Virus record (IMG/VR): IMGVR_UViG_3300027734_000186
Location: 1 to 34,738 of that record
Length of the DNA stretch: 34,738 bases
Reading direction: 5' to 3' (one strand)
From: a virus
A program made the position numbers and the translations under genes. Of this stretch, positions 5,420 through 28,403 are shown piece by piece. The first letter of the stretch is position 1. Each line of letters starts with the position of its first letter. The notes below the pieces were generated by a model. That model was not told the origin of the DNA. It did not search any database and saw nothing but the letters and a program-made list of their open reading frames with translations.

Positions 5420-5640
5420 CACTAGTATTTATCCCTAGTTGTTAAAATACAACTTCCAAGAGGTTTGAGCGAACCTAGCCTACCTAGGTTGCCTTCAAAG
5501 TTCTTCCATTGAGGAATCGCTTACCCATCAGTCTTGCGAGGCACAGGCACTAATTTCGCCACCTGTATTGCGCTGTTTCAGCCTCTTACCCTACTAGTAA
5601 CGCTATAACCTTATGCCGCTACGATGTCGTTAGAGCCGCC
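5420..5640. ncRNA. Candidate structured RNA (intergenic, many stems)
   Basis: The 312-base gap 5353-5664 has no convincing gene. It is visibly richer in GC than its surroundings and holds many inverted repeats: ACTAG/CTAGT (5421-5439), AGTTGT/ACAACT (5438-5455), AGGTT/AACCT (5461-5476), AACCTAG/CTAGGTT (5472-5490, 7-bp arms, 5-base loop), TTCC/GGAA, ACAGG/CCTGT inside GAGGC/GCCTC (5539-5585), and TAACG/CGTTA (5597-5632). The second AGGTT partner is shared, so two hairpins exclude each other. Strand is unknown; it could be a leader of the minus-strand operon or a separate RNA. No tRNA, tmRNA or known riboswitch was recognised. Confidence 0.4.
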
Positions 5641-5664
5641 AGCACAAGGGATATGAATTCTACA

Positions 5665-23972: not shown

Positions 23973-24347
23973 TTATCGGTAGTTTAATTTTTGGTATACC
24001 TGCTCTGCAAGGTGCTGTTTTCGAGCTTCTTTAGATTTGGTATTCATATCTGCTTCTTTGTGTTGCTGCGGTACATCATTACCTAATTCAATCATTCCAT
24101 GCTGTTTTAAGTGGCTTCTATGGTGGTTACGGCTCTTAATCCATGAACCATCAACCTGAGAAACATAGCCTTCAATGTCGCTCATTACCATGTGGGTTAA
24201 CTGTCTAGGTTGGTTTTGCTTTTCTAGCCATGACTTTTTAGCTTCTTCTAAACCTAGTGTCGGAGTCCATATTTCCATGAAATACTCCTCATCTGACTGT
24301 TTTGCAGCGTGATTTCCTTCTTCATATCCACAATTAGGACATTTCAT
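23973..24347 (-). CDS. Zinc-ribbon protein of the head gene region
   Basis: A 124-residue protein starting MKCPNCGYEEGN, a CxxC knuckle that would need extra ligands such as H13 for zinc. The middle, DIEGYVSQVDGSWIKSRNHH followed by HLKQHGMIELGND, is basic and conserved-looking, recalling proteins placed before the scaffold gene in other podoviruses. The ATG at 24347 is fixed by TAATG overlap with the glycosyltransferase stop and by AAGGAG; the longer TTG start lies within that gene. Function unknown; head assembly is possible. Confidence 0.65.
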   Translation of the reverse strand: MKCPNCGYEEGNHAAKQSDEEYFMEIWTPTLGLEEAKKSWLEKQNQPRQLTHMVMSDIEGYVSQVDGSWIKSRNHHRSHLKQHGMIELGNDVPQQHKEADMNTKSKEARKQHLAEQVYQKLNYR

Positions 24348-25141
24348 TACCAACTCCTTATGATTTCTGGGACTTTGTGATATTCGTCTGGTTTTAAAAG
24401 GGTTACTGAGTCATACCATGTTGCGTGTTTCCAACGCCAGCAATGAAACTGGGCTTTAGGAAGCAATACAATGACCTTTACGCCCATTGCGGCAGCCACA
24501 TGAGTGGTAGCAGTATCTACACAAACAACGCCTTTAAGAGCCTTTATATGCCTTGCAAACTTGTGCCAATCTTTCTTCCAGCCATCGTCAGGAAGGGGTA
24601 TAAATGGCCCATCTCCCTCAATAGTCAAGGAGTAAGCGTTTGAACCTGTTAATGCCAGCATTTCTTCCGGCAATATTGACCTAGAATAGTATTGATGAGT
24701 CCTAGCGCAGTTCCAATTTACCCCTATTTTGCTAGGAATAAAGCTAGGGACTACATCAAGGTAGCCTTCTGAGCCTACAACCTTGTCTTTTGACAGCGGA
24801 AATAGGTTTCTAACATAAGGAAGTGATAAAGATAGGTAATAAGGCAAGGAAAGTGACCCAATCCAGTAATCACATTGGGCAGCTTCGCCAGCATTAACTT
24901 CATTTGTAAATACATCGACACATTCCATTTGCCCAATAAGGTAATGGAGTGAGCTTTCTTGTATAACTACTAGCTTTTTAGCGCCTAATACCTTTAATGC
25001 AGGTAAAAACCTAGAAAATTGAATAATATCGCCAAATCCTTGCTCCATTTGGACACAAATAGACTTGCCCATCAAGGATTCACCTTGCCAGGCACGGACT
25101 TTTTCAGGGTTTTTTTGATAAGGAGAGGCTGATGCTTTCAT
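24347..25141 (-). CDS. TPR-type glycosyltransferase (GT9/heptosyltransferase-like)
   Basis: A 264-residue protein with the marks of TPR-linked glycosyltransferases: QGFGDIIQFSRFLPAL at 34-49, IGVNWNCARTHQYYSRSI at 139-156, and the nucleotide-sugar site CVDTATTHVAAAMGVKVIV at 207-225. The same frame runs upstream to 25258 with family-like coding (YEQGFKLLEYRW), but holds no ATG, GTG or TTG; the only candidates are ATT codons at 25258 and 25255, just after GAGGAA. The ATG at 25141 is the standard choice but probably loses about 38 residues. It may glycosylate virion fibres or host envelope sugar. Confidence 0.75.
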   Translation of the reverse strand: MKASASPYQKNPEKVRAWQGESLMGKSICVQMEQGFGDIIQFSRFLPALKVLGAKKLVVIQESSLHYLIGQMECVDVFTNEVNAGEAAQCDYWIGSLSLPYYLSLSLPYVRNLFPLSKDKVVGSEGYLDVVPSFIPSKIGVNWNCARTHQYYSRSILPEEMLALTGSNAYSLTIEGDGPFIPLPDDGWKKDWHKFARHIKALKGVVCVDTATTHVAAAMGVKVIVLLPKAQFHCWRWKHATWYDSVTLLKPDEYHKVPEIIRSW

Positions 25142-25239
25142 TACCTCTGGATGCCATCGGTATTCTAAAAGTTTAAAGCCTTGCTCGTATCTTCCAGCGT
25201 GTAAATGCTCGTAAGCTAATTTATATTGCTGTACTGGGT

Positions 25240-25902
25240 CTATAACAGTAGTAATAATGCTTCCTCATCGTCTAGATTCTGTACACGCTGAGCTTCTAAT
25301 ATGGCTAACTGGGTTTGAATTCTTGCCAGTTCGTTTCTATAAAAAGCTGCTTGTACCAGTTGTTCTTGTTCTTTAACAAGTCTAGCGATGGTATCGTCAA
25401 ATTTCGTTAAGTCTGACGGTATATCAGCGCTAACTTCTTGATTGGATTGTACTTTATTTTCTTTTTGCTTGCTCTTAGGAGTTGGGTCAATTAACTCTTT
25501 AATTCCAGCTTTACGAGATTCTTGGGCAGACCTGTAAGCATCTAGCTTCTTACGCTCAGCTTGAGCAATCTTCTTTTGTATGCGTTTTAGACGCTCATAT
25601 TCTTTCTTAGTAAATCCATCGTGCATATCCATTTCAGATGGAATTACACCTACTTGACCAGTAATATTAGCTGTATCATTTTGGTCTGTGGCGCTAATTG
25701 TGCCTGTAATGTTACCTGTAACAATATTGCCTGTAATGCTTGCAGTATCGTTTTGGTCTGTAACGCTGATTGTGCCAGAAGCTAACGCATACCCATCAAT
25801 ACTAGCGGTATCGTTTTGGTCAGTAACAGATATAACACCAGTAATAACTGGTAGTTGTATATCCGAAAACGGATTAGTAGAAAATGGTCTAAAGCCGAGC
25901 AT
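25240..25902 (-). CDS. SVTDQNDTA-repeat and coiled-coil virion protein
   Basis: A 220-residue protein in two parts. Residues 20-85 have three copies of a short beta repeat, G-x-I-S-V/A-T-D-Q-N-D-T-A-x-I, separated by variable spacers. Residues 95-215 form a Lys/Glu/Gln-rich coiled coil (KEYERLKRIQKKIAQAERKK), ending DDEEALLLLL. It is coupled to the gene before it (TAATG) and its last codons overlap the extended frame of the glycosyltransferase. Similar repeats are seen in environmental podovirus structural proteins. A fibre or spike adaptor is plausible. Confidence 0.6.
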   Translation of the reverse strand: MLGFRPFSTNPFSDIQLPVITGVISVTDQNDTASIDGYALASGTISVTDQNDTASITGNIVTGNITGTISATDQNDTANITGQVGVIPSEMDMHDGFTKKEYERLKRIQKKIAQAERKKLDAYRSAQESRKAGIKELIDPTPKSKQKENKVQSNQEVSADIPSDLTKFDDTIARLVKEQEQLVQAAFYRNELARIQTQLAILEAQRVQNLDDEEALLLLL

Positions 25903-26274: not shown

Positions 26275-27336
26275 TTAAGCTGTATAAGAACCAGATGATG
26301 TAAATTTAATGATTGTGTTTGAACCGCTAGTAGTTACTGTTGGTGAACCTGATGTAGTGCCTGTGTAGTTGGCAGTTGGTACTGAGAGAATTACGACACC
26401 TGAACCGCCAGCACCACCAGTTTGCCCAGTACCAGCACCACCACCGCCACCTCCTGTGTTAGCTGTGCCAGCAGAACCAACAGAAAGACTGTTAGTTCCA
26501 TTTCCACCTCCACCACTACCACCTGTTCCGCCTGTTCCAGTAAAGTAAGCTCCACCACCTCCACCGCCAGCGTAAGTTACGCTTGAACCCGTAATAGAAG
26601 ATGCAACACCTGCACCACCATTACCATAATTTCCTGCTCCAGTTGATGTTGCTCCTACTGCAGAAGCTCCACCACCACCTCCTGATGAATAAGGTGCTGT
26701 AGTAAATCCGCCATTTCCACCTCCAGCAAATCCTTGACCAGAAGTGCCTGCTCCGCCAGCGTCATTTGCATTACCATCGGCTGCTGCACCACCTCCAGAA
26801 CCTCCACTTAAACCAACTTGAATTGTTCCACCGCTACTACTTGTTGTTCCTGCTCCACCGCCAGCAATAGCAATTAGTCCGTTAAATACTGAGTTATTTC
26901 CACTTGTTCTTGTACCACCATCAACTGCTGTACCAGCACCGCCAGCACCTACTGTGATTGTGTAAGTTGTACCAGATGCTAATGAACTTGTACCAGTTAA
27001 TAAACCACCAGCACCACCACCACCTGAACCACCAGCACCGCCTCCAGCAACTATAAGATAAGAAACAGCATAAGCCTGTGCTGCTAATGTTTGCCATGCT
27101 CCGTTGTAAACTTCGTAAGTATTTAAAGTAGTGTTGTATCTTGTTGTACCAGCTACAGGACTACTAGGTCTTTGTGCTGTAGTTCCGCTAGGCGGAATAA
27201 AGCCGCCTGTATTTCCAGCAGTAGTAACAATTCCTGAAGTAGAAACAAGTCCTAAAGTACCAGAACTATCAGCAGTAGATTTAAGTCCAGCTGAGCCTGA
27301 TACCGCACCATCATCCGCAGTTATTATAGTTGTCAT
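26275..27336 (-). CDS. Glycine-rich tail fibre/adhesin, paralogue 3
   Basis: A 353-residue protein. An N-terminal domain (about 1-90) ends in RYNTTLNTYEVYNGAWQTLA, a block found in many phage fibres. Residues about 95-305 are a glycine-rich region with runs such as GGGGAGGLLTGTSS, suited to polyglycine-II helix packing. The last 40 residues (GVVILSVPTANYTGTTSGSP then a Thr/Ser-rich end SGSYTA) are shared with the next two genes. It overlaps paralogue 2 by ATGA. It probably binds the host surface. Confidence 0.8.
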   Translation of the reverse strand: MTTIITADDGAVSGSAGLKSTADSSGTLGLVSTSGIVTTAGNTGGFIPPSGTTAQRPSSPVAGTTRYNTTLNTYEVYNGAWQTLAAQAYAVSYLIVAGGGAGGSGGGGAGGLLTGTSSLASGTTYTITVGAGGAGTAVDGGTRTSGNNSVFNGLIAIAGGGAGTTSSSGGTIQVGLSGGSGGGAAADGNANDAGGAGTSGQGFAGGGNGGFTTAPYSSGGGGGASAVGATSTGAGNYGNGGAGVASSITGSSVTYAGGGGGGAYFTGTGGTGGSGGGGNGTNSLSVGSAGTANTGGGGGGAGTGQTGGAGGSGVVILSVPTANYTGTTSGSPTVTTSGSNTIIKFTSSGSYTA

Positions 27337-28403
27337 GCTGTGTAGCTTCCACTAGAAGTAAATTTAATAATTGTGTTTGAGCCAGATGTTGTAACAGTTG
27401 GAGAGCCTGATGTTGTGCCTGAGTAGTTTGCTGTAGGTACAGATAGGATTACTACGCCTGAGCCACCAGCAGCACCAGCAGAACCGCTAGTATCATTTCC
27501 AGCACCACCTCCACCGCCACCTAAATTAGCAGTACCAGCAACAGCGGCAGGAGAATTAGCTCTATTTCCACCAGCTCCACCACCACCTGCTCCACCTGAA
27601 CCAGCGGTAGTAACAGCAGCTCCTCCGCCTCCGCCAGCATAGGTAACAGAAGAACCTGTTATAGATGATGCTGTCCCTGCGCCGCCAGTACCACCTCCTG
27701 AACCTGAGCCGTCTACTCCTACTGCACTAGCGCCACCTCCACCAGCACCACCATAGTTGGCTGCAGAGCCACTTCCAGTTCCGCCAGCAAATCCTTGACC
27801 ACTTGTGCCAGAGCCAGGAGTTGTTCCGCTACCACCTCCGCCTCCACCACCGCCGCCACCAGAACCGCCTGAAGCTCCAGCTATATTTGCATCACGACCA
27901 GGAGAACCTCCACCACCGCCAATAGCAGTTAAAGAATTAAATACTGAATTTGAACCATTAACTCCTACATTACTTCCAGATGCTCCACCAGCACCGCCAG
28001 CTCCAACAGTAATGGTATATGTTGTTCCTACATTTAATGTTGTTGTATTAGTAAGTAATCCGCCAGCACCACCGCCTCCAGCAATACCGTTTCCTGCTCC
28101 AGTACCTCCACCTCCAGCACCACCAGCAACAATTAAATAAGATGCAGAATATGCTTGTGCCGCTAAAGTTTGCCAGCTTCCGTTATAGACCTCATAAGTA
28201 TTTAAAGTGGTGTTATATCTTGTTGCTCCGTTAGACGGACTAGCTGGTCTTTCAGCGGTTGTTCCTCTTGGTGGATTAAACGCACCAGTAGCACTTCCAG
28301 CATCAACAATTCCACCTGTAGGAGCTAAAGCAATATTTCCAGTAGTGTCACCAGTTACTGAAAATGCTGTAGTCGAGGTAGTTCCAGCGTTTATTGTACT
28401 CAT
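27333..28403 (-). CDS. Glycine-rich tail fibre/adhesin, paralogue 2
   Basis: A 356-residue protein with the same plan as its neighbours. Its block RYNTTLNTYEVYNGSWQTLA is nearly identical to that of paralogue 3, and the start (MSTINAGTTSTTAFSVTGDT) differs. The Gly-rich core has different loop sequences, including a run of about nine glycines near 190. The C-terminal 40 residues match paralogue 3 almost exactly. Overlaps both neighbours by ATGA. Duplicated receptor-binding genes with varied cores suggest a host-range repertoire. Confidence 0.8.
   Translation of the reverse strand: MSTINAGTTSTTAFSVTGDTTGNIALAPTGGIVDAGSATGAFNPPRGTTAERPASPSNGATRYNTTLNTYEVYNGSWQTLAAQAYSASYLIVAGGAGGGGTGAGNGIAGGGGAGGLLTNTTTLNVGTTYTITVGAGGAGGASGSNVGVNGSNSVFNSLTAIGGGGGSPGRDANIAGASGGSGGGGGGGGGGSGTTPGSGTSGQGFAGGTGSGSAANYGGAGGGGASAVGVDGSGSGGGTGGAGTASSITGSSVTYAGGGGGAAVTTAGSGGAGGGGAGGNRANSPAAVAGTANLGGGGGGAGNDTSGSAGAAGGSGVVILSVPTANYSGTTSGSPTVTTSGSNTIIKFTSSGSYTA

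Follow-up and report, generated by a model that had tools for sequence, protein, structure and literature searches.

A predicted glycosyltransferase (GT) gene shared by a large group of phages appears to be translated from an AUU codon that lies within the end of the preceding gene. According to this reading, to which we assign a probability of about 0.89, the GT is made as a protein of its own from AUU 25255-25253, which would be selected by the Shine-Dalgarno (SD) core GAGG at 25266-25263, situated in the end of an upstream gene encoding a coiled-coil protein (coil gene); the AUU start would have been gained once from ATG and would be held in place by the overlap of the two genes. The evidence is comparative and comes from a 34,738-nt stretch of viral DNA (the window) and its relatives. 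The features concerned are listed in Table 1.

Table 1. Features of the GT start region in the window.
Feature	Position	Strand	Evidence
GT coding sequence as proposed, AUU start, 302 aa	24347..25255	-	Open frame, relatives, Pfam, Foldseek
Proposed AUU start codon	25253..25255	-	ATT conservation, spacing to GAGG/GAGA, aligned ATG in L287
Shine-Dalgarno core GAGG, 7 nt 5' of AUU	25263..25266	-	Conserved in relatives
First ATT, not conserved, not the start	25256..25258	-	Preceding-codon counts
In-frame TGA closing the GT frame 5'	25265..25267	-	Sequence
First ATG (residue 39), choice of NTG-only gene callers	25139..25141	-	Not conserved as first NTG
ATA codon overlapping the coil stop, rival start; ATG here in ATGA-type clades	25241..25243	-	
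Coiled-coil gene, 220 aa, tail DDEEALLLLL, stop TAG 25242-25240	25240..25902	-	Sequence
16-nt overlap of coil and GT frames, GT in the -1 frame	25240..25255	-	Sequence

An NTG-free reading frame at the end of the coil gene

The GT frame (25264-24347, minus strand) begins GSIITTVIDPVQQYKLAYEHLHAGRYEQGFKLLEYRWHPEVM. As an earlier note on this sequence had observed, it extends upstream without a stop codon as far as the TGA at 25267-25265, its first ATG is at 25141, and the intervening stretch contains no ATG, GTG or TTG (NTG); GAGGAA and two ATT codons, at 25258 and 25255, also lie where that note had placed them. In the window sequence this NTG-free lead measures 41 codons. The next longest leads of this kind among the long minus-strand frames of the gene array span 25 and 23 codons, and leads of 43 and 56 codons are found in two plus-strand frames antisense to genes. 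The 3' end of the coil gene, GATGAGGAAGCATTATTACTACTGTTATAG, contains GAGG (25266-25263), followed after 7 bases by ATT (25255-25253) and later by the TAG stop codon (25242-25240); the GT frame opens about nine codons before this stop.

The protein encoded is predicted to be a glycosyltransferase similar to those of family GT9 (heptosyltransferases WaaC, TibC). The Pfam model Glyco_transf_9 (PF01075) scored 24.2 bits, above its cut-off of 22, over 33 residues only (235-267 of P0001), and the top Foldseek match was the GT9 structure 3tov (E 2.5e-5, TM 0.40). Matches to GT9 and heptosyltransferase structures headed the list, yet they were weak, with TM-scores of about 0.4 and 10-14% identity. 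Besides these low TM-scores and identities, the phage GT differs from GT9 by an N-terminal helical hairpin; in the AlphaFold2 model (mean pLDDT 78) helices 7-19 and 23-34, counted from ATT 25255, precede the residue encoded by ATG 25141. Among annotated phages the window GT had no match at 1e-5 and a sister-clade protein matched four distant records only; PHROGs contained no family for the GT.

Close to the GT gene, the region 26275-28403 (minus strand) encodes two adjacent glycine-rich proteins (353 and 356 aa) of near-identical layout, which judged by eye are likely tail-fibre paralogues. Elsewhere in the window, positions 5523-5649 (minus strand) matched Rfam family RF02932, Betaproteobacteria-1 RNA, with 84.6 bits (cut-off 49.4). 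The presence of an RNA of bacterial type in the genome of a phage hints at a betaproteobacterial host.

Conservation of the ATT codon and of its spacing to GAGG

Six IMG/VR scans with GT or coil proteins, in which each GT scan was confined to its top 80 among 386-445 confirmed relatives, yielded 326 records with a GT, the window among them. Twenty-eight loci without the HLHxGR motif used as anchor were set aside and read individually, and L100, cut by a contig end, was dropped. The remaining 297 loci form 142 clusters at 95% identity; the GT gene overlaps the coil gene in 139 of them, the exceptions being L287, L296 and L299. In the structure-prediction alignment the L065 row starts one codon late and the L356 row lacks its M, which leaves the counts below unaffected.

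An in-frame ATT precedes the coil stop codon in every overlapping cluster (139/139), and this conservation rules out the sequence error that the earlier note had listed among its explanations. Neither ATG nor GTG occurs between the upstream in-frame stop codon and HLHxGR in any of these clusters. TTG is present four residues before the motif in two of them, L313 and L367, too far into the frame for the conserved protein to begin there. In 131 of the 139 clusters the ATT follows GAGG (127 clusters) or GAGA (4) at exactly 7 nt, so that a conserved ATT is combined with an SD sequence at a spacing fit for initiation. The remaining eight clusters keep the ATT with a different spacing: GAGG is only 4 nt away in L306, L307, L309, L311, L314 and L329 and 10 nt away in L323, and L325 has no GAGG. 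In L169, GAGG and ATT are shifted together by one codon. Directly before the start, 43 of 131 clusters have ATT, and the others ACT, CAT, CGT or a different codon. Thus, of the two ATT codons that had been offered as possible starts, the one at 25255 is strongly supported, and the one at 25258, which is not conserved, is not the start.

Gene callers limited to ATG, GTG and TTG would choose an NTG further downstream, in the window the ATG at 25141; such a start would leave the preceding stretch untranslated and remove 38 residues from the window GT. However, these 38 residues are conserved as protein and are present in ATG-started relatives, in agreement with the earlier proposal that the region is coding, and they include the two predicted helices. 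Comparison of N-termini, which that note had called for, further revealed that none of the relatives read uses the equivalent of 25141 as its start, and that the position of the first NTG varies between -16 and +93 residues relative to HLHxGR (133 clusters). A start at the downstream NTG is therefore extremely unlikely.

The coil tail (DDEEALLLLL and similar) is kept both with and without the GT overlap. Changes in its codons were counted on a tree of 79 tips that were not selected for ATT, 73 of which carry GAG[GA]-N7-ATT. A single change was found at the coil third position from which ATT takes its A, and none at the third position after it, a constraint at silent sites that favours the AUU reading. 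The GAG codon changed five times at its third base, and all other coil third positions within the stretch 6-30 times each. The third base of c0 changed 24 times, and the first base of c1, which is expected to matter more to the coil protein, 35 times.

Control genes point in the same direction. ATT is found at its place in 137 of 139 overlapping clusters vs 1 of 26 coil genes that are unlinked or of the ATG type (Fisher 3.5e-26, a value that ignores relatedness). The coil codon at the SD core is GAG in 131/139 vs 6/26, and GAG and ATT occur jointly in 130/139 vs 0/26. A wider, separately parsed set gave ATT in 105 of 107 NTG-free pairs and in 7 of 40 NTG pairs; among the distinct NTG-pair tails with ATT that were listed, GAG is also present only in L313 and L367, both of the AUU type. 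ATG-type relatives encode the same upstream peptide without GAGG...ATT. Because ATG-type and unlinked coil genes spell similar residues differently, these sequence comparisons indicate that the ATT is not a mere by-product of the coil peptide. Its invariant TT is partly required by the coil residue at this position, which is hydrophobic in all classes. In two loci with a coil gene in which the GT was not found, L387 and L405, the tail peptide is kept, and GAGG and ATT are not.

The counts also bear on a programmed -1 frameshift in the last coil codons, which would generate a coil-GT fusion, with the SD-like GAGG inside the coil gene acting as a stimulator in the manner of dnaX. The GT does lie in the -1 frame, its frame opens only about nine codons before the coil stop, and SD-like sequences can stimulate -1 frameshifting, as in dnaX. 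However, an X-XXY-YYZ heptamer is found in the overlap in none of the 122 clusters with GAG[GA]-N7-ATT (of 133), and the bases at which the tRNAs would re-pair, the third of c0 and the first of c1, vary freely. Moreover, the existence of ATG-started orthologues indicates that the GT works unfused. In the downstream region, where a stimulatory structure would be expected, the mean minimum free energy (positions +6 to +96) was -16.3 kcal/mol, vs -15.6 kcal/mol for mononucleotide shuffles. The frameshift, another of the options raised from the sequence, is disfavoured and we consider it very unlikely.

A further possibility is that ribosomes start at the out-of-frame ATG 25268-25266, inside GATGAGG, and then shift by +1 into the GT frame. 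Most relatives do contain this ATG, as a by-product of their Asp-Asp-Glu codons. The sequence of L065, GACGAAGAGG, has no ATG at this point and yet keeps GAGG-N7-ATT, and the short frame from the out-of-frame ATG ends at variable places, which leaves this route with a negligible probability.

Relatives that start at ATG

In deeper sister clades the same two genes are joined by an ATGA stop-start overlap; for example, a coil protein ending in LLMLL (stop TGA) is followed by a GT beginning MTPYxQYKKG. Of the 28 loci without the motif, 26 have ATGA with the coil stop, and in L399 and L370 the GT lies behind an inserted ORF. This extra ORF, between the coil stop and the GT, is HNH-endonuclease-like by eye. 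A further scan of 80 loci, 14 of which lacked HLHxGR and were read separately, gave an ATGA start in 35 of 45 clusters, mostly with the coil stop and in some cases behind other short sequences, and ATGA with the coil stop in all 14 motif-less loci. One of the 45 clusters, L486, was classed as NTG on account of a TTG near HLH, yet it carries the GAGG...ATT stretch.

The three clusters without overlap are nested in the AUU clade. In L287 a gap separates the two genes, the coil tail has lost the ATT, and an ATG stands exactly in the ATT column (MSSNLNPHQQYKL / ITTNLNPHAEYKK). L287 is the single case of an orthologue with an ATG in that very column; the other ATG-type relatives begin 4-5 residues later. 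L299 shares 97% identity with one of the AUU members; GAGG and ATT are both gone from it, and its GT starts at an ATGA shared with the end of an inserted ORF (L299, 2522-3010), which is HNH-endonuclease-like by eye. Neither ATT nor ATG was found in the 600 nt available in L296. Here (L296, 1-640) a non-coding stretch of about 600 nt appears to interrupt the N-terminus of a GT that is 98% identical to the intact one of L292; the insert is possibly an intron, and its comparison with Rfam gave two sub-threshold matches only (E 0.064 and 0.32).

The position of the ATG in the sister clades and in L299 aligns with the NTA codon that overlaps the coil stop in the AUU clade (ATA 25243-25241 in the window), as would be expected if ribosomes terminated on the coil gene and reinitiated at this codon. 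However, the base before the coil stop varies among all four letters. In addition, the coil stop of the 139 overlapping clusters is TAA (100) or TAG (39) and never TGA, although TGA would create an NTG; the NTA codon is therefore never NTG, and the ATGA overlap is absent from the AUU-type clusters. Reinitiation would also leave the fixed GAGG-N7-ATT unexplained, and the probability that it accounts for GT synthesis is very small.

A first tree placed an ATGA clade inside the AUU clade. When 19 more ATG-type rows were included, the ATG-type sequences fell outside and the AUU rows, including L287, L296 and L299, formed one group. This extended tree requires three changes between AUU and ATG; provided that the ATG-type rows lie outside, AUU arose once and gave way to ATG twice. 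The direction from ATGA to AUU is thus likely rather than proven, because these are quick trees with long branches. The tree suggests an ancestral ATGA overlap, a single upstream move of the start by 12-15 nt (4-5 codons) to AUU and, where the overlap had been disrupted, at least two returns to ATG. Since these natural reversions occur where the overlap is broken, cause (the overlap) and effect (the start codon) can be separated by comparison.

Proposed initiation at AUU and known non-canonical starts

Read in the frame of the upstream gene, an NTG start in the -1 frame becomes TGN (Cys, Trp or stop), AUU becomes TTN (Leu, Phe), AUC becomes TCN (Ser) and AUA becomes TAN (Tyr, stop). Given the hydrophobic coil residue and the genetic code, AUU alone of the AUN set suits the neighbouring gene, and we infer that the overlap, which has no space for an NTG codon, is the reason for its use. 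The SD core would direct ribosomes to the AUU, and the product is expected to begin fMet-Thr-Thr-Val-Ile-Asp-Pro. The stretch from the SD to the AUU is predicted to be modestly more accessible than a control 100 nt downstream (0.56 vs 0.42 unpaired). Initiation would be weak and limited by IF3. Ribosomes that end the coil gene 10-16 nt further on may feed the AUU, so that translational coupling to the coil gene, also among the options of the earlier note, could be the source of its ribosomes. In E. coli, AUU initiates translation only weakly, and a long dependence on it is therefore surprising. A doubtful but conceivable explanation is that the phage lineage has kept AUU since a single switch, no better start codon fitting the overlap with its neighbour's Leu-rich tail, with expression tied to the level of the host's IF3 and the state of its ribosomes, the overlap constraint having turned into a regulatory device.

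Very few genes are known to start at AUU, a codon that is very rare as a start in bacteria. A literature search of titles and the beginnings of abstracts, with most subscription journals outside it, found no phage gene family with an AUU start. AUU starts as such are already known; as far as this search extends, a conserved AUU in a phage family, apparently forced by an overlap and with natural reversions, is new. The large phage AUU clade constitutes a testable case of non-canonical initiation, and NTG-free overlaps combined with a conserved SD sequence suggest a route to other hidden starts.

Two cellular genes invite comparison. The E. coli gene infC, encoding IF3, has an ATT start (PMC5472188), and IF3 represses non-canonical starts (PMC5472188, PMC2268962). 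It shares the AUU start codon with the start proposed for the phage GT; it differs in being cellular and in that its product discriminates against its own start, whereas the AUU of the phage GT is apparently forced by the overlap. Streptomyces sigR has a GTC start that is repressed by IF3 (PMC5472188). Like the GT start, it is non-canonical, conserved in a clade and overlooked by gene callers; in contrast to it, the sigR start is a GTC in a cellular gene and sets the stoichiometry with RsrA, and an overlap constraint is not among the features described in the available part of that source (PMC5472188). A third comparison is with the ATGA stop-start overlaps of adjacent genes, by which the coil and GT genes of the sister clades are joined. 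The AUU clade differs from these in starting 12-15 nt further upstream, with an SD sequence of its own and with TAA or TAG as the coil stop.
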